Assembly (NCBI GenBank): GCA_028717345.1
Contig: JAQUNZ010000009.1
Coordinates: forward strand, 1 to 52,854
Length of the DNA stretch: 52,854 nucleotides
Source: Candidatus Methanoperedens sp.
GTDB lineage: Archaea > Halobacteriota > Methanosarcinia > Methanosarcinales > Methanoperedenaceae
Reading direction: 5' to 3'
Positions within the stretch are counted from its first letter, which is position 1; each line of letters begins with the position of its first letter. Positions 2,610 to 23,506 of the stretch are shown here, piece by piece. Under the pieces are notes generated by a model. That model ran no database searches. It was not told the origin of the DNA and saw only the letters and a program-made list of their open reading frames with translations. A program made the position numbers and the translations under genes.

Positions 2610-3425
2610 TTAAAATATATTATATAATGAAGATATTATAACGAAAAGTATAATGATAAAACCAAAACCAGTACAGAAATAGCCAAAATTGATCTTCTCC
2701 GCAAGTTTAACAAGGGATTTTATCGTCAGCAAACCAAAAAAGAACGAAGCAATTATTCCGGGAATGATCAAAATATCAAATGTGCTATGTTTCAGTAATC
2801 CGAGCAGGACTTCCACTCCAAAAACGGCAGGAATACTTACTAGGAAGCTAACCCGCAACGCCTCTCTTGCTGAATACCCCCTGAACATCAATGTTGAAAC
2901 CGTTGTCCCGGACCTGCTCAGGCCCGGAATAGCAGTAAGACCCTGGGCAATTCCTAGGTAAATCGAATCCTTAAAAATAATCTCTTTTTCCGTGTTTTTC
3001 TTTTTTTTTGCAGTCCACTGGAATACTCCTGTCAGTATCAGGAAAAATGCTATTAAAAGCATTGCTGCATTGCCTGCAAAATTAAATTTATCCAGACCGA
3101 ATAATAAAAGCGGGGTTCCGATAAGACCTGTCAGCAGGGTTGCCATTGTAATAAAGCTCGTTAACCTGTTTGCCTCTGTATCTTGTGCCGGATTTTTAAT
3201 GTAGTTCTTAAGATTTTTCAGTATCCCAAGGATTTCCATTTTGTAGTAAACAATAGCAGCGAGCAAAGTGCCGATGTGCATCCATAATGCGATCACGAGG
3301 GCTTCAGAAAGGGTTTTGTTGAAGAATTTGACCATGATAAGAGCTTCAACGCCCTTGCTTGAGACAGGAAGCCACTCGAGTATCCCTTGCAGGATTCCGA
3401 TTAAAAAATAGCTCAAAACATCCAT
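2610..3425 (-). CDS. uppP: Undecaprenyl-diphosphatase UppP/BacA family
   Basis: The 271-residue product matches the length and both signature loops of the UppP/BacA family: GILQGILEWLPVSSKG near the N-terminus and GIAQGLTAIPGLSRSGTTVS in the middle, with about eight hydrophobic helices. The enzyme hydrolyses polyprenyl diphosphate to the monophosphate at the membrane; in archaea it recycles the polyprenyl carrier for glycan assembly and releases phosphate. It lies downstream of phoA on the same strand beyond a terminator-like hairpin, so it may be transcribed alone. No copy of the Pho block is evident directly before it. Confidence 0.92.
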   Translation of the reverse strand: MDVLSYFLIGILQGILEWLPVSSKGVEALIMVKFFNKTLSEALVIALWMHIGTLLAAIVYYKMEILGILKNLKNYIKNPAQDTEANRLTSFITMATLLTGLIGTPLLLFGLDKFNFAGNAAMLLIAFFLILTGVFQWTAKKKKNTEKEIIFKDSIYLGIAQGLTAIPGLSRSGTTVSTLMFRGYSAREALRVSFLVSIPAVFGVEVLLGLLKHSTFDILIIPGIIASFFFGLLTIKSLVKLAEKINFGYFCTGFGFIIILFVIISSLYNIF

Positions 3426-3499
3426 AATCCTCTATTTATTTTGAATCGACTCTTGATAATTATTTCTTCAATTTAGTATTGCCTTTTGCACCCCCATGT

Positions 3500-3534
3500 A
3501 ATAAAAAGATACCGCCTGGAAAACCGGCGGCGGT
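3500..3534 (-). terminator. Terminator-like hairpin after phoA
   Basis: ACCGCC at 3511-3516 pairs with GGCGGT at 3529-3534. In the minus direction the hairpin follows the phoA stop (3553) and is followed by a T-rich run (complement of ATAAAAAGAT). Confidence 0.5.
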
Positions 3535-3552
3535 TCATATTTATACGTATTT

Positions 3553-4761
3553 TTACTGTTTAAGAGCTTTTACCATTACTCCATAAAGGTCAGTGTTGTC
3601 AACAGCCCTGTCCAAGGATTTGCTGCCTGGACCCTGGCTCCAGATAAGAGTATCTACGCCGGTATGCTCATTGCTTGTCCAGCCGGCATCCACAGACTCA
3701 CTGGCATTGAGAAGCTTATCAGGCCCGTTTATGGCAAAACCGCCTGTCTCATGGTCAGGAACAATAATGAGCAGGGTATGTTCTTTTCTCTCCGGACTTG
3801 TGTTTATCCAGTCCAGAACTACCTTCACGGCATCATCAAATGCCAGGGTTTCACCCAGCTGGTAATTCAGATCATTAGCATGGTTTGCCCAGTCAACCTG
3901 GGAGCCTTCCACCATGAGGAAGAAACCGTCACTGTTATTTTCCAGAATATTCAGGGCGGAAGATGTCATTTCCGGCAATCCCGGTTCAGTTGTTCCGGGT
4001 ACGCGAAGATATTCCGGGGTCATGCCGCTGTCATTGAATAGTCCCAGCAGTTTCACAGTTCCGTTTACTACAGCAGAGTCCATTCCCGCCCTGGTATATA
4101 CGACCGGATAACCTTTTAGCCCAGCTTCGGCGATAAAGTTCCCGGAAGTACCGCATTTATCCGGCTTTGTTGAATTGAATTTTGCAACGCCTCCGCCCAG
4201 CATTACATCAACCCCGGTCACCTCAATATACTGCCTGGCAATTTCATTCTCGCAGTTCCGGGACTTAACATGCGCCCCAAATACCGCCGGGGTGGCATGT
4301 GTGATTGTGGACGTAGCCACAAGACCGGTGGCTTTACCGTCTGCTTTAGCCAGTTCCAGGATGCTGGGATTATACGGTTTACCATCGGCGTGATAACAGA
4401 TCTCACCGTTATTGAATTTTTCACCGCATGCCCAGGCTGAGCCTGCGGCTGCTGAATCGGTTATGATGCTGTTGGCTGAATAGGTTCTCTGGTATCCGAT
4501 ATTCTCCAGTGTTTCAAGATAAAGGGAAGCTCCATCAGGTCCGTTTTTATATATCCGGGCTGCTGTCACATCCGCCAGACCCATACCGTCAGGAACCATG
4601 AATATGATGTTTTTGACTTCGTTATGGTTCTCCAGATAGTTTTCAGATTGCTGGAGCTCATTTTTATTTACACTCGCATTTATGGATGGCACAAATAAAA
4701 CGGCTGCCAGCATCATCAATGCCAGCAGTGCGCCAATCCCGATTAATTTATCTTTCCTCAT
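3553..4761 (-). CDS. phoA: Alkaline phosphatase (PhoA family), membrane-anchored or secreted
   Basis: The 402-residue product begins with a hydrophobic signal or anchor segment (residues about 6-30). It keeps the alkaline phosphatase active site: VPDGMG, the nucleophile Ser in TDSAAAGSAW, VEGSQVDWANHANDL, PDHETGGF and NEHTG, which together give the Zn and Mg ligands. It is shorter than the E. coli enzyme (471), as in many archaeal homologues. It would release phosphate from organic esters outside the membrane. A copy of the Pho block lies about 70-130 bp upstream, with a terminator-like hairpin after the stop. Confidence 0.95.
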   Translation of the reverse strand: MRKDKLIGIGALLALMMLAAVLFVPSINASVNKNELQQSENYLENHNEVKNIIFMVPDGMGLADVTAARIYKNGPDGASLYLETLENIGYQRTYSANSIITDSAAAGSAWACGEKFNNGEICYHADGKPYNPSILELAKADGKATGLVATSTITHATPAVFGAHVKSRNCENEIARQYIEVTGVDVMLGGGVAKFNSTKPDKCGTSGNFIAEAGLKGYPVVYTRAGMDSAVVNGTVKLLGLFNDSGMTPEYLRVPGTTEPGLPEMTSSALNILENNSDGFFLMVEGSQVDWANHANDLNYQLGETLAFDDAVKVVLDWINTSPERKEHTLLIIVPDHETGGFAINGPDKLLNASESVDAGWTSNEHTGVDTLIWSQGPGSKSLDRAVDNTDLYGVMVKALKQ

Positions 4762-8514: not shown

Positions 8515-9636
8515 TTACTGAACTGCTCTGAAGAATCCTTCCTGCTCTACTATCTTCTGACCGTCGTTGCTCAGTACAAAGTCAAGGTATGCTTTAACTG
8601 CGCCTGTGGGTATGCCCTGGCTGTAGTAGTAGAGGTCGCGTGCAAGTCCGCTGGTCTTATCGGATGCTACACCGAGTCCGGTATTTGTGAGCTTGCTTGC
8701 TGCATTGTATGCGCCATTAGCGCCACTGGTAGTCGAGTTTGCCTGAATTCCATTCTGTGAGGCTGGGGTGACAAGATCTTTTCCATTAGCTCCGCCTGCT
8801 GCAAAACCGATATCAACGAAGCCGATTGTGTTAGGTGTTGATGCAATGTAATCTCTTATTCCCTGGTTGCCCGACTCTCCGTGTGCGCTGCTATCAAGCT
8901 GACCAACAGAGTTCTTAACGTTAATCCATTTTGCAAAGGTCTCTTCTGTGCCAGAGTCATCTGAGCGCTGGACTACCGCTATATCTTGACCGCCGATTGA
9001 TAGAGAAGTTGTTCCAATATATGCAGCTCTCAAAGCGGTGGTGTTTACAGTAAGGGTTGCGTTTCCGGCATCCCAACCAGATGCTACTGTGTTGTTAACT
9101 ACATTTATGGCTTTGGCTTGAGTTGCACCAATCTTGACATTTCCTGCAACTACAATCATGCCTGTTCCGATTTTGGTCTCATATATAAATGCGTCCTGTC
9201 CTGTTCCCTGAATGACTGCCTTCTCTCTGCCATCATATTTTAAGCCTGTGGTCGGGTCTGTTTGAGGACCGTTTGGCCAGATATCCGAGCTTGCTGCCAC
9301 ATCTACCTGTTTGTTGAAGACAAGCGCCCTGCCTGTGCCTGAGCCGCCGCCTGCGGTAGTGATTTTGATTGCGGGATATTTCTTACTGAAGTCAGTAATT
9401 TCGTGCTGGCTTATGGGTAATACTGTGGTACTGCCTTTGATGCCGAATTCTCCATTTACACTCATATCTTTGTTCGCTGTCTGGTCTCCCGCATTCTTCT
9501 GTGCGGACTGTACAAGTATTCCCACGCCCGCTGCTGCCACTGCCGCGATCACGATCAAGATCAATGTCGCGATTGCTGGCGAGACGGCTTTTGCGTCATG
9601 CAGGAATGCTCTTATTCCTTTAGTATTTTTTTCCAT
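8515..9636 (-). CDS. pstS: PstS-like phosphate-binding protein with archaeal pilin-type (class III) N-terminus
   Basis: The 373-residue product starts with a charged leader ending in HDAKA, then VSPAIATLILIVIAAVAAAG (residues 18-37), the classic archaeal pilin N-terminus, and not a lipobox or Sec signal. The rest is a PstS-type periplasmic-binding domain that keeps the phosphate site: GSTTVLP (68-74), GGGSGTGRA, the R-x-D-x-S-G-T segment RSDDSGTEETF, and NTIGFVDIGFA. It would bind phosphate outside the membrane. The pilin-type end suggests processing by the A24 peptidase (5307) and anchoring or assembly into a pilus-like structure by the motor at 14808-18338 (inference). No PstC, PstA or PstB was seen. 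Confidence 0.93.
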   Translation of the reverse strand: MEKNTKGIRAFLHDAKAVSPAIATLILIVIAAVAAAGVGILVQSAQKNAGDQTANKDMSVNGEFGIKGSTTVLPISQHEITDFSKKYPAIKITTAGGGSGTGRALVFNKQVDVAASSDIWPNGPQTDPTTGLKYDGREKAVIQGTGQDAFIYETKIGTGMIVVAGNVKIGATQAKAINVVNNTVASGWDAGNATLTVNTTALRAAYIGTTSLSIGGQDIAVVQRSDDSGTEETFAKWINVKNSVGQLDSSAHGESGNQGIRDYIASTPNTIGFVDIGFAAGGANGKDLVTPASQNGIQANSTTSGANGAYNAASKLTNTGLGVASDKTSGLARDLYYYSQGIPTGAVKAYLDFVLSNDGQKIVEQEGFFRAVQ

Positions 9637-9769
9637 GTTCTTTCTCCTATACCATATAAGGTGATGCTGACCGGTATTGCCCCTGATTTATCATTATTTT
9701 TCAAATCGAAGTTTGGCGGACACGGATTTATAGCATCACCAATCACATACTAATTTCATAAACTATTTT

Positions 9770-9815
9770 AGGAAAACCCTCATAAACTATAGAGAGTTAT
9801 ATAGTCTATTTTTAT
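9770..9815. promoter_or_regulatory. Pho-island block, copy 7 (upstream of pstS and of RNA candidate 1)
   Basis: The segment from the AAACTAT at 9748 region through CCTCATAAACTATAGAGAG and TTATATAGTCTATTTTTAT is repeated in diverged form at 9978-10036, with the same order: AAACTAT, CCTCATA.ACTATA, then TCTATTTTTAT. It sits between the pstS start (9636, minus) and the hairpin-rich segment (9820 onward, plus). Confidence 0.55.
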
Positions 9816-9819
9816 TTTC

Positions 9820-9972
9820 ATGAGCCTGAAACCTGCGCCCCCGATTTCCCCTGTGCGGGGGCATGGTTTCGACATGACAGAAGCCCTGCGCCCTGGCGAA
9901 AGCGCAAAGCGGGCTTCATTTCTTCCGACGGTCTATACACTGGCGGACGTGTGCGTACCGCCCGGCTAATCT
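9820..9972 (+). ncRNA. Candidate structured RNA 1 (three GC-rich hairpins)
   Basis: Three stems follow each other in a GC-rich patch within AT-rich DNA. Stem 1: GAAACC (9828-9833) and GCCCCCG (9837-9843) pair with CGGGGGC (9856-9862) and GGTTTC (9865-9870). Stem 2: GAAGCCC and TGCGC (9880-9891) pair with GCGCA and GGGCTTC (9902-9917), enclosing GCGAAAGC, a GNRA-type loop that favours the plus strand. Stem 3: GGCGGACG (9942-9949) pairs with CGT-A-CCGCC (9954-9962). It is preceded by a Pho-island block. A 49-codon ORF from 9820 to 9969 reads through the same bases, so a short protein is the alternative. No known RNA family is recognised. Confidence 0.5.
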
Positions 9973-9977
9973 AATTA

Positions 9978-10036
9978 TGGAAACTATATCAGGGTAAGCC
10001 TCATAGACTATATAGAAAAATATATTCTATTTTTAT
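9978..10036. promoter_or_regulatory. Pho-island block, copy 8 (upstream of RNA candidate 2)
   Basis: A diverged direct repeat of 9755-9815: AAACTATATCAGGGTAAG, CCTCATAGACTATATAG and TATTCTATTTTTATCCTC. Half-sites CTATATA and CTATTTT are present. It directly precedes the second hairpin-rich segment. Confidence 0.55.
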
Positions 10037-10044
10037 CCTCCAGG

Positions 10045-10180
10045 AAAAGGAGACTACAGGCTTTCTGCACGGGTTTGATTTATGAGTGGAAAGCCTGTAT
10101 GAAGCGCCGTACGAAAAGGATGGAATGTATGATGGGCTTCATATATCACTGTACATCAGGCAGGATAATAAAACCTGCAC
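10045..10180 (+). ncRNA. Candidate structured RNA 2 (three hairpins)
   Basis: TACAGGCTTTC (10055-10065) pairs perfectly with GAAAGCCTGTA (10089-10099), an 11-bp stem. TGAAGC (10100-10105) pairs with GCTTCA (10136-10141), and GCAGG (10160-10164) with CCTGC (10174-10178). The three-hairpin layout and the upstream Pho-island block mirror candidate RNA 1. The strand is not certain. No known RNA family or protein is recognised. Confidence 0.45.
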
Positions 10181-10182
10181 AA

Positions 10183-10370
10183 ATAGAAAATATAGTACTA
10201 TATAGTATCGAATTATTTCTGCATGCTGCGATCGAATTAATCTCGACATCTACATCATTTGCCCTCTGAATAGCTGCAAAAATGGTCAACCACAGAGCGC
10301 TCAGAGGACACAGAGAGCACAGAGAAAATGGAATTGAATGAAATATCTGAAAAGCGCTCTCTGTGGTTTT
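10183..10370. other. Third half-site block and palindromic repeat before the 64-residue gene
   Basis: 10183-10215 has another CTATATAG core (AAATATAGTACTATATAGTA), a perfect TAGTACTA-centred palindrome. From about 10285 to 10375 there is an interspersed repeat: ACCACAGAGCGCTC and CACAGAGAGCACAGAG on the left, with GCGCTCTCTGTGGT on the right forming an inverted repeat. A related repeat lies at 51913-51982. No gene was found. Confidence 0.5.
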
Positions 10371-10373
10371 TCA
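10288..10373. repeat. Interspersed CACAGAG-type palindromic repeat, copy 1
   Basis: ACCACAGAGCGCTC at about 10290-10303 is complementary to AGCGCTCTCTGTGGT at about 10355-10369, and the space between contains CACAGAGAGCACAGAG. A second copy with the same words is at 51913-51982. Its right end abuts the stop of the 64-residue gene, so it may also act in termination. Confidence 0.6.
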
Positions 10374-10565
10374 AACCACTTTCTTTTTATGGGCAAGAAC
10401 CATCACGCCAAGCGCGCCCATCACAGGAAAGACCGCAAACACCTCAGCGGGAAGATCTGCCGACAGGGAATACCACGATACAGAGGCGGCGCTGTAGATT
10501 GAAATAACAAAAAGCAGAAATGCACCCGCTAATTCATTGCGCATATCTTTTCTTAGTTGCATCAC
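10371..10565 (-). CDS. Hypothetical 64-residue two-helix membrane protein
   Basis: The product has two hydrophobic stretches (GAFLLFVISIYSAASVSWYS and VFAVFPVMGALGVMVLA) with a short acidic loop and a basic C-terminal tail (HKKKVV). No family is recognised. An ATATAGA-type half-site element lies just upstream (10583-10612). It lies on the same strand as the membrane protein at 10632, 66 bp apart, within the pilus/phosphate region. Confidence 0.55.
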   Translation of the reverse strand: MMQLRKDMRNELAGAFLLFVISIYSAASVSWYSLSADLPAEVFAVFPVMGALGVMVLAHKKKVV

Positions 10566-10582
10566 ATCATAAAACCATTCTA

Positions 10583-10612
10583 CATAGAAACAATAGAGTA
10601 TATAGAATAAAA
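10583..10612. promoter_or_regulatory. Pho-island half-site block, copy 9 (weak)
   Basis: ACATAGAAACAATAGAGTAT and ATAGAATAAAAC contain CTATA-type half-sites on the minus strand, about 20-45 bp upstream of the 64-residue gene. The match to the consensus is weaker than in the other copies. Confidence 0.3.
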
Positions 10613-13648: not shown

Positions 13649-13680
13649 TGTATATAGTGTATATATTCTATATACTTTTA
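13649..13680. promoter_or_regulatory. Pho-island half-site block, copy 11
   Basis: TATATAGTGTATATATTCTA and TATACTTTTA contain CTATATAC and TATATAG half-sites. They lie 37 bp upstream of the CARDB-like gene start and overlap the last codons of the PhoU-AbrB gene. Confidence 0.45.
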
Positions 13681-14666
13681 GAGAAGTCAATGGCTAACTC
13701 TGCGACGTTTGCAGCATAATCCCCTATCCTTTTCACGCTGTCTGCAATGAGCCCCAGGGACATGACAGCATCAGGATCCATGGTCGTCGAAGGGTGCCTT
13801 ATCCTGCGCAGATCCTCGCCTATTTTTTTATGTTCTTCAATAATCCTGTTTGCAAGTTCTACATTGCATTTTGTAAAAGAAATAACTGAATCATTGACCA
13901 GCTTATAAGATATCAGGCCTATCTTAACAATATCCTTGAGCAGGGCTTCAGGAATATTTTCTCCGGATTCTATTATTATACTGGCGATCTTTCCAGCATG
14001 GTCTGACATGCGCTCTAACTGGTCGCTTGCCAGCCTGTAGTAGAAGGCGCCTGTCAATCCCAGTTCACTCTTTTCTGATATCCTTGAATGCAGCAGAATA
14101 TCCATGAACTGCTTTGATATCAATAGATGGAGGCGGTCTATCTCATCATCCTGCTTTACCACTTCAGAAGCGAGAGAAACATCTTTTGTATTCATTGCCT
14201 TGATGGTATTGTCAAGCATCCACTGTACTTTTATATGCATGCGCCGAAAGCTCATATCGATAGGCATGTCCCCAGGATTCGAGATATCCTGGATTATCAC
14301 CTTATCATGCGTCTCTTCGATGATCTCAATTCCTATCAATTTTTTCACAATAGCCGATATGTCCTTTCTCTGTTCATGTGTGATATTCCTGGCTTTAAGT
14401 TCGATCACACGGTACCCGGCAACGTAGGTGGCTATTATATCTCTTATCAGCGGATCGCCTGCCCTTCCTTCTATGGTTAAGGTCTTTGGACCCTGAGCCG
14501 CAAAACCCCCGTTTGAAGTTAAAAGAAGAGCCCCGTCCTCCTGGGGGTGCATATGAACACGGGAACCTGATGTTATTCCGGCACTGACAGCCCATTTTTT
14601 TGGAAGGGAAACAACGAACGTTGATTTGCCAGTCACCTGGACCTTTCTTATTTCTGTATTGATCAT
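13668..14666 (-). CDS. phoU: AbrB-PhoU fusion phosphate regulator 1
   Basis: The ATG at 14666 gives 332 residues, the same size as the paralogue at 22505 (333), so I reject the longer frame to 14780. Residues 1-45 are a SpoVT/AbrB swapped-hairpin DNA-binding domain (IRKVQVTGKSTFVVSLPKKW). The rest is two PhoU-type helical bundles ending in SLGLIADSVKRIGDYAANVAELA. Archaeal proteins of this type are annotated as phosphate uptake regulators. It is divergent from the pilus motor gene, with Pho-island half-sites between them. It is the best candidate reader of the CTATATA sites (inference). Confidence 0.9.
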   Translation of the reverse strand: MINTEIRKVQVTGKSTFVVSLPKKWAVSAGITSGSRVHMHPQEDGALLLTSNGGFAAQGPKTLTIEGRAGDPLIRDIIATYVAGYRVIELKARNITHEQRKDISAIVKKLIGIEIIEETHDKVIIQDISNPGDMPIDMSFRRMHIKVQWMLDNTIKAMNTKDVSLASEVVKQDDEIDRLHLLISKQFMDILLHSRISEKSELGLTGAFYYRLASDQLERMSDHAGKIASIIIESGENIPEALLKDIVKIGLISYKLVNDSVISFTKCNVELANRIIEEHKKIGEDLRRIRHPSTTMDPDAVMSLGLIADSVKRIGDYAANVAELAIDFSKSI

Positions 14667-14713
14667 TTTAATAGTCTTTTGTGAGGTTAGTAGATAGTAT
14701 ATACTTTTTCCCA

Positions 14714-14780
14714 AGAATATATAGGCTATATATAAAATCAGTAGAAATGAGGGTAAATAGACTATATAATCTATATACAA
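14714..14780. promoter_or_regulatory. Divergent regulatory region with two half-site blocks (PhoU-AbrB 1 / pilus motor)
   Basis: Two blocks lie between the divergent genes: GAATATATAGGCTATATATA then AAATCAGTAG (14716-14743), and AATAGACTATATAATCTATA (14757-14776), in which CTATATA half-sites are 9 bp apart. They could allow joint control of the regulator and the pilus motor operon. Confidence 0.6.
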
Positions 14781-22504: not shown

Positions 22505-23506
22505 ATGGAAGCGCGTAAAGTTTACGTTAGCGGCGGTTCAACCTTTGTAATTTCGCTGCCCAAGAAATGGGTCAGGAAGACTAACCTGAAGCCGGGAGAC
22601 TCTCTGGTAGTTACAGAACATGGTAGTTCATTGCTCATTGAGACCAGTGTAATTGAAAAAGAATCACGAACGAAGGAGATCAGGATATCACAAATAACAT
22701 CAAGCGAAGCCCTTGAGCGTACATTGATCGCTTTTTACCTGGTTGGTTATGATACGATCAAGATAAAACTCGACAGAAAAGATCATCTTGCATACAGGGA
22801 GAGCATTCGGAATATCATGGACTATCTGATCGGTGTGGAAATAGTTGAGGATACCAATGAAGCAATGACGCTTGAAATAATGCTTGACTACAAACGTATG
22901 AGTACCTTGCAGATACTCCAGAGGATGTTTTCCATAGACAGGTCGATGCTTCTTGATCTTGGAAAGGCATTGAAAACTATGGATATCGGGCTGGCAAAAG
23001 ACGTAATAGTCAGAGAGAAAGAGATCGACAGGCTCTATTTTTTAGTTGTCAGGCAGCTTAAGAGCGCCGTGGAATACCAGCAGATAGCGGAAAAACTTGG
23101 AATAGAATCCCAGAGGGACTGCCTTGGATACAGGATCGTGGTAAAAGTTCTTGAAAGAATAGCAGACCATATAGAAAACATAGCAAAAAATTACATCAGG
23201 TTATATGAGGTTCAAAAAGAAACTCAATTGAATGATTATATAGACCTTAACAATAATTTAGTTGTGACTTTCGAAAAAGCGATTCAGTCATTATTTACAA
23301 GAAATGGTGAAATGGCTGAAAGCGTTTTTCGTGAGCTGAAAAAGGTTGAAAAATCCCAATCCGATATTTCAAAAGGATTGTTCAAGATAGAAGATATCCA
23401 ATCTGCTATTTTAATGAAAGCAATGCTTGACAGCCTTGGAAGAATAGCGAGCTACAGCGGGGATATTGCAGAAGTAGCTATCAATATGTCAACGGAAACG
23501 TCCTGA
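22505..23506 (+). CDS. phoU: AbrB-PhoU fusion phosphate regulator 2
   Basis: The 333-residue product has the same layout as the 13668 protein: residues 1-45 are an AbrB-type domain (ARKVYVSGGSTFVISLPKKW), then two PhoU helical bundles ending in MLDSLGRIASYSGDIAEVA. It lies next to the pilin-like gene and its promoter carries a Pho-island block, suggesting autoregulation. A relic of a third family member, matching its last 36 residues, lies at 28775-28882. The two intact paralogues may sense different states or form heteromers (inference). Confidence 0.9.
   Translation: MEARKVYVSGGSTFVISLPKKWVRKTNLKPGDSLVVTEHGSSLLIETSVIEKESRTKEIRISQITSSEALERTLIAFYLVGYDTIKIKLDRKDHLAYRESIRNIMDYLIGVEIVEDTNEAMTLEIMLDYKRMSTLQILQRMFSIDRSMLLDLGKALKTMDIGLAKDVIVREKEIDRLYFLVVRQLKSAVEYQQIAEKLGIESQRDCLGYRIVVKVLERIADHIENIAKNYIRLYEVQKETQLNDYIDLNNNLVVTFEKAIQSLFTRNGEMAESVFRELKKVEKSQSDISKGLFKIEDIQSAILMKAMLDSLGRIASYSGDIAEVAINMSTETS

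Follow-up and report, generated by a model that had tools for sequence, protein, structure and literature searches.

sRNA132 of Haloferax volcanii is a 138 nt intergenic RNA with its own promoter, stems and a linker; it accumulates at low phosphate, acts on the mRNAs of phosphate ABC transporters and is confined to one genus (PMC6560208). In Listeria, LhrC1-5 are multicopy small RNAs (sRNAs) that answer to a single stress regulator and whose short binding sites are redundant (PMC4132741). The role of archaeal sRNAs is known in few cases, and a search of the literature turned up no sRNA described in the methane-oxidising archaea considered here.

The window, the whole stretch of 52,854 nt that was analysed, is one contig (C9) from an archaeal genome of 2.54 Mb (about 1.48 Mb of which was examined, piecewise) whose nearest named relatives are Methanoperedenaceae MAGs. 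It carries an array of hairpin-rich units that lies between an adjoining pstS-like gene and small minus-strand genes (Table 1). With somewhat better than even confidence, this is taken to be a Pho-controlled tandem array of small structured RNAs on the minus strand, probably regulatory, that arose when the pstS promoter and leader were duplicated. The units resemble sRNA132 in being intergenic and archaeal, of similar size, with stems, a linker and a predicted promoter of their own, and restricted to one genus; sRNA132, however, is a single-copy RNA with two stems, encoded away from pst. It demonstrates that pst mRNAs can be targets of archaeal sRNAs, and the parallel is one of analogy, not of relation. 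As with LhrC1-5 there are several similar copies, whose common Pho regulation is suggested by their promoters, but LhrC1-5 are bacterial, bind Hfq and are controlled by LisRK, whereas the units are archaeal and their internal copies have a duplicated pstS promoter. Structured 5' leaders of archaeal mRNAs offer a further comparison: the pstS leader and hairpin h3' of the units share a start position and CCGCCAAAC-type sequence, but the units do not include pstS and have two more hairpins, which are their own. The units are probably a family of small RNAs that is new and under phosphate control.

Table 1. Features of the array and its surroundings (positions in the window)
Feature	Position	Strand	Basis
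pstS-like phosphate-binding protein gene (PBP_like_2)	8515-9636	minus	Pfam PF12849, E=2.6e-19
pstS 5' leader	9637-9742	minus	alignment and folds of 9 leaders
Block 1, pstS promoter	9750-9815	minus	repeat D1, alignment of 24 blocks, tree
Unit 1, probable minus-strand small RNA	9818-9965	minus	folds, covariance alignment and search, covariation
Unit 1 parts in minus order: h3', purine-rich linker, h2', h1'	h3' 9965 to ~9924; h2' 9919-9880; h1' 9870-9828	minus	
Segment 1 hairpins h1, h2, h3	9828-9870; 9880-9917; ~9924-9965		
Mini-ORF, 33 codons, MKPALRF..., starting at ATGAAGCCC	9818-9919	minus	translations of 20 units
49-codon ORF, judged not a gene	9820-9969	plus	stops in homologous units, no Pfam match
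Block 2, pstS promoter paralogue, proposed unit 1 promoter	9971-10036	minus	repeat D1, block alignment
Unit 2 (outermost type)	10042-10143	minus	folds, alignment of 5 outermost units
Unit 2 parts in minus order: h2', h1'	10143-10098; 10099-10055	minus	
Segment 2 hairpins h1, h2	10055-10099; ~10098-10143		
Diverged Pho-type promoter of unit 2 (predicted)	10160-10206	minus	conserved in 5 genomes, promoter scan
Promoter of small ORF 10371-10565 (predicted)	10566-10610	minus	repeats D3 and D4, promoter scan

The first-pass annotation had described two hairpin-rich segments, each with three stems and each preceded by one of two diverged direct-repeat blocks. The blocks are as described (66 nt, 77% identity). 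Segment 1 does contain three hairpins and segment 2 two, the first of which has the 11 perfect pairs claimed for it (TACAGGCTTTC/GAAAGCCTGTA); the supposed third is a weak GCAGG/CCTGC stem at 10160-10178 with no conservation among homologues, and a promoter is the better interpretation of its region. A GCGAAAGC motif in a loop of segment 1 exists, and its conservation is absent among homologous units. Neither tRNA nor tmRNA was found in the window. When the window sequence alone was folded against shuffles, z for segment 1 was -1.46 on the plus and -2.16 on the minus strand, and for segment 2 it was -3.18 (plus) and -2.81 (minus). Folding thus exceeds chance only in part, segment 2 but not segment 1 being clearly above shuffles on the plus strand, and the case for structured units lies in homologues with covarying stems rather than in the folding of single sequences.

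Such homologues were found in the same genus. A DNA search revealed the same arrangement, units between blocks in a pst/pho neighbourhood, in 8 other genomes, so that with the window 9 of the 31 genomes of this genus (Methanoperedenaceae) have between 1 and 4 units each and 20 in all: two each in the window, G020, G021, G026, G008 and G028, three in G005, four in G016 and one in G017, truncated remnants being left out of these counts. One further genome, G019, has one block and zero units. A covariance model built from 15 internal units gave no confident match outside the pst/pho locus in the 31 genomes and nothing significant in 186 genomes from other genera of the order; it did find the outermost unit of G026, which was absent from the model, at E=9.2e-19. 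The h2 signature had no match in viral contigs, and a contig scan with PstS brought up two relatives, both already among the genomes with an array or a block. The units are homologous copies, and next to every one lies a predicted promoter, either a Pho-type block or a diverged promoter-like sequence. In a tree the block-1 copies from 8 genomes group together, as do the outermost units of four genomes, so the array is older than these species; u2/u3 of G016 and u1/u2 of G005 look like later duplications. In the G005 locus (L065, ~3660-3760) a hairpin, GGAAGCCC...GGGCTTC, whose loop is rich in A and which is possibly a decayed h2, lies upstream of the displaced pstS. This locus also has CACAGAG stretches like those in the window at 10288-10368, where an inverted repeat (AACCACAGAGCGC/GCTCTCTGTGGTT) with CACAGAG repeats lies between the array and the small ORF.

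Three hairpins recur in internal units and two in outermost units, h3 being internal only. The h1 stem is exemplified by GGTGCCCC/GGGGCACC, or CAGGCTTTCC/GGAAAGCCTG in outermost units; h2 is ATGAAGCCC/GGGCTTCAT, with a plus-strand loop rich in A, and h3 is GGCGGC/GCCGCC. Covariation of the stems, which the first-pass annotation had named as the test of an RNA, was observed: the score was 0.145 against 0.108 +/- 0.012 for shuffles (0/500 as high), and slid controls reached at most 0.094. Relatedness inflates such scores, but it is retained in the slid controls. In the MAFFT alignment on which the score was computed, which is not fitted to structure, 84% of cells pair and 11 pairs have changed on both sides. 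Rfam gave no match at the gathering score, and relaxed thresholds gave only sub-threshold chance matches. A pseudoknot between the linker and the h1' loop was tried and rejected, its post hoc co-occurrence (Fisher p=0.002) having a permutation p of 0.37. The units combine compensatory stem change with the lack of a conserved protein frame, as a structured non-coding RNA should, and the earlier proposal of duplicated structured RNA units, probably non-coding and linked to Pho-type promoters, is supported by the homologues and their covariation.

Block 1 contains Pho-like repeats (CTATAGTTTATG) and a TATA-like ATAGTTTATGA at 9756-9766. Block 2 has a TATA-like ATAGTTTCC at 9979-9987 and, in the alignment of 24 blocks, shares the sequence of the pstS promoter and keeps a constant spacing to the first hairpin, as would a paralogue of that promoter. 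The promoter predicted for unit 2 consists of CTATATAG and a TATA box, GTTTTATTA (10166-10173), ~27 nt upstream of ATGAAGCCC, and resembles the promoter of a minus-strand small ORF, orf64 (repeats D3 and D4). For the small ORF at 10371-10565 (minus) the probable start is ATG 10544, on a leaderless mRNA with a TATA box (10567-10574) ~27 nt upstream; the alternative GTG start, 10565, is almost on the TATA box. The pstS-like protein has an archaeal type IV pilin-like N-terminus, and the leader of its gene has a conserved outer stem (GGTGATGC/GCATCACC) around a near-invariant TATAAATCCGTGTCCGCCAAACTTC. This motif was found in 7 genomes, a single time in each. The 5' end of the leader is similar to h3' of the units, and the leader could be a cis-regulatory RNA.

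The direction of transcription had been given as rightward, each segment being paired with the block on its left. Neither the direction nor the pairing is supported, the block to the left of segment 1 being the minus-strand promoter of pstS and the units probably being driven from the right. In the 24 aligned blocks the spacing between a minus-strand ATAGTTT and a CTGG-like start hardly varies, and this start opens the pstS leader hairpin in block 1 and h3' in the other blocks. As pstS depends on block 1, the simplest view of the copies of this block is that they too are promoters on the minus strand. Outermost units have no h3' and have a predicted minus-strand promoter of their own instead, with TATA boxes ~27 nt from ATGAAGCCC. 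The rival reading, that the blocks promote rightward into plus-strand small RNAs whose pyrimidine-rich UUCCUCCU linker between h2 and h3 pairs with the Shine-Dalgarno (SD) sequence of targets, would suit the block on the left of every unit, the CCTCC-like linker of most internal units and the two stems and pyrimidine-rich linker of the haloarchaeal phosphate sRNA (PMC6560208). A BRE-TATA promoter matrix, made from 14 tRNA sites only, too few to tell direction in AT-rich blocks, also found TATA-like matches of similar score on the plus strand of the blocks. Yet block 1 must in any case serve the minus-strand pstS, and the distance from block to h1 varies (~8-12 nt) whereas that from block to h3' is nearly constant. 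Moreover G021 and G008 retain their rightmost block with no unit on its right, where, read rightward, it would drive nothing. Folding over 20 units is slightly better on the minus strand (z -3.66 vs -2.98, Wilcoxon p=0.028). Wobble counts do not separate the two strands. In the plus reading they are 14/5/34 G-U and 14/3/12 A-C for h1/h2/h3, and the outer part of h3 pairs better on plus; 31/34 of the h3 G-U cells, however, fall outside the RNA that would start at the inferred minus-strand 5' end, and in the core of h3 there are 3 G-U vs 12 A-C. An independent count in the minus reading gave totals of 34 G-U and 33 A-C, h2 of the outermost units favouring plus. Plus-strand RNAs are accordingly judged fairly unlikely, and it is quite likely that the units are transcribed from the minus strand, in the same direction as pstS. 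Unit 1 would then most likely be driven from block 2 and unit 2 from the diverged third promoter, both on their right.

Three other explanations accept the repeats and read them otherwise. The array might consist of cis-acting cassettes, Pho promoters multiplied for read-through into pstS with hairpins that stabilise or process a long leader, which agrees with the orientation of all units towards pstS, their pstS-type promoters and the 5' hairpin position common with the pstS leader. This is unlikely, as simple promoter duplication has no need of the conserved and covarying h2' and h1', and genomes in which pstS is lost or undetected nearby (G017, G008 and G028) still have the array. Minus-strand genes for small proteins or leader peptides, with an SD-like sequence and an ATG giving short MKP... 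peptides, would explain why ATGAAGCCC, with which h2' of unit 1 opens, is retained in most units, why an AGGAGG-like purine stretch precedes it in many internal ones and why outermost units have it at the position of a leaderless start. Beyond the MKP start, however, no conserved amino-acid sequence was found in these mini-ORFs: sequence, length (3 to over 40 aa) and frame diverge, one unit reads MKP-stop, two have no ATG, and the frame in which the retained 3' arm of h2' is read differs between units. The AGGAGG-AAT-ATG spacing of only 3 nt is odd for a ribosome site and there is no Pfam match, which makes such genes quite improbable; a slight third-position excess over eight codons, seen by eye in the MKP frames, was not counted as evidence. 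The plus-strand ORF of 49 codons that had been offered as a possible small protein does exist, but its translation is unsupported, as in 17/19 other units every plus-strand frame is interrupted by stops. The units fit RNA better than protein, and translation of the mini-ORF as part of the mechanism is possible. Finally, the inverted repeats could act as DNA, as cruciforms or as sites bound by protein within a regulatory array, and the near-even G-U and A-C counts agree with pairing that does not serve one particular RNA strand; given the long variable loops, a separate promoter for each unit and hairpins at the inferred transcript start, this is very improbable.

In the favoured reading, that of minus-strand small RNAs, the two segments would be copies of one small RNA gene lying upstream of pstS in the same orientation, born by duplication of the pstS promoter and the start of its leader. 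Each unit would give a short minus-strand RNA of ~100-155 nt from the promoter on its right, internal units being capped by a 5' hairpin and unit 2 having h2' right at its inferred 5' end. Phosphate control is suggested by the promoter held in common with pstS, with which the units may be co-induced at low phosphate, and by the gene neighbourhood, which has phosphate-binding protein genes and a PhoU-domain protein (Pfam) and an alkaline-phosphatase-like gene (by sequence). Two PhoU-like proteins are encoded in the window, at 13668-14780 (minus) and 22505-23506 (plus); the former has an N-terminal MazE/AbrB-like segment, below the Pfam cut-off, and is a candidate DNA-binding Pho regulator. The RNAs would probably act in trans as regulators of phosphate genes, the contacts being made by the AGGAGGAAU linker, which is rich in purines, and by the loops of h2' and h1', which are rich in U or C, and extra copies might raise the dose or diversify the targets. 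Action in trans is suggested by the persistence of units with no adjacent pstS detected in three genomes; in G017 pstS is gone and one unit retained. At the loci of G008 and G028 (L066 and L067) block 1 and the pstS leader persist where no pstS was found, beside a predicted multi-spanning membrane protein gene (3321-4454) in G028. A more specific and rather doubtful proposal is that this genus-restricted family mimics an mRNA start, its start codon and SD-like stretch titrating a factor or RNA that governs pstS translation, in a tandem array that expands and contracts, each copy being a self-contained low-phosphate RNA gene.

The strand on which transcripts should be sought is corrected, probably, from plus to minus. 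If these RNAs are made, the array would illustrate clearly a way in which small RNA genes may originate, by promoter-leader duplication, and would connect such genes with the supply of phosphate in a lineage that is uncultured and important in the environment.
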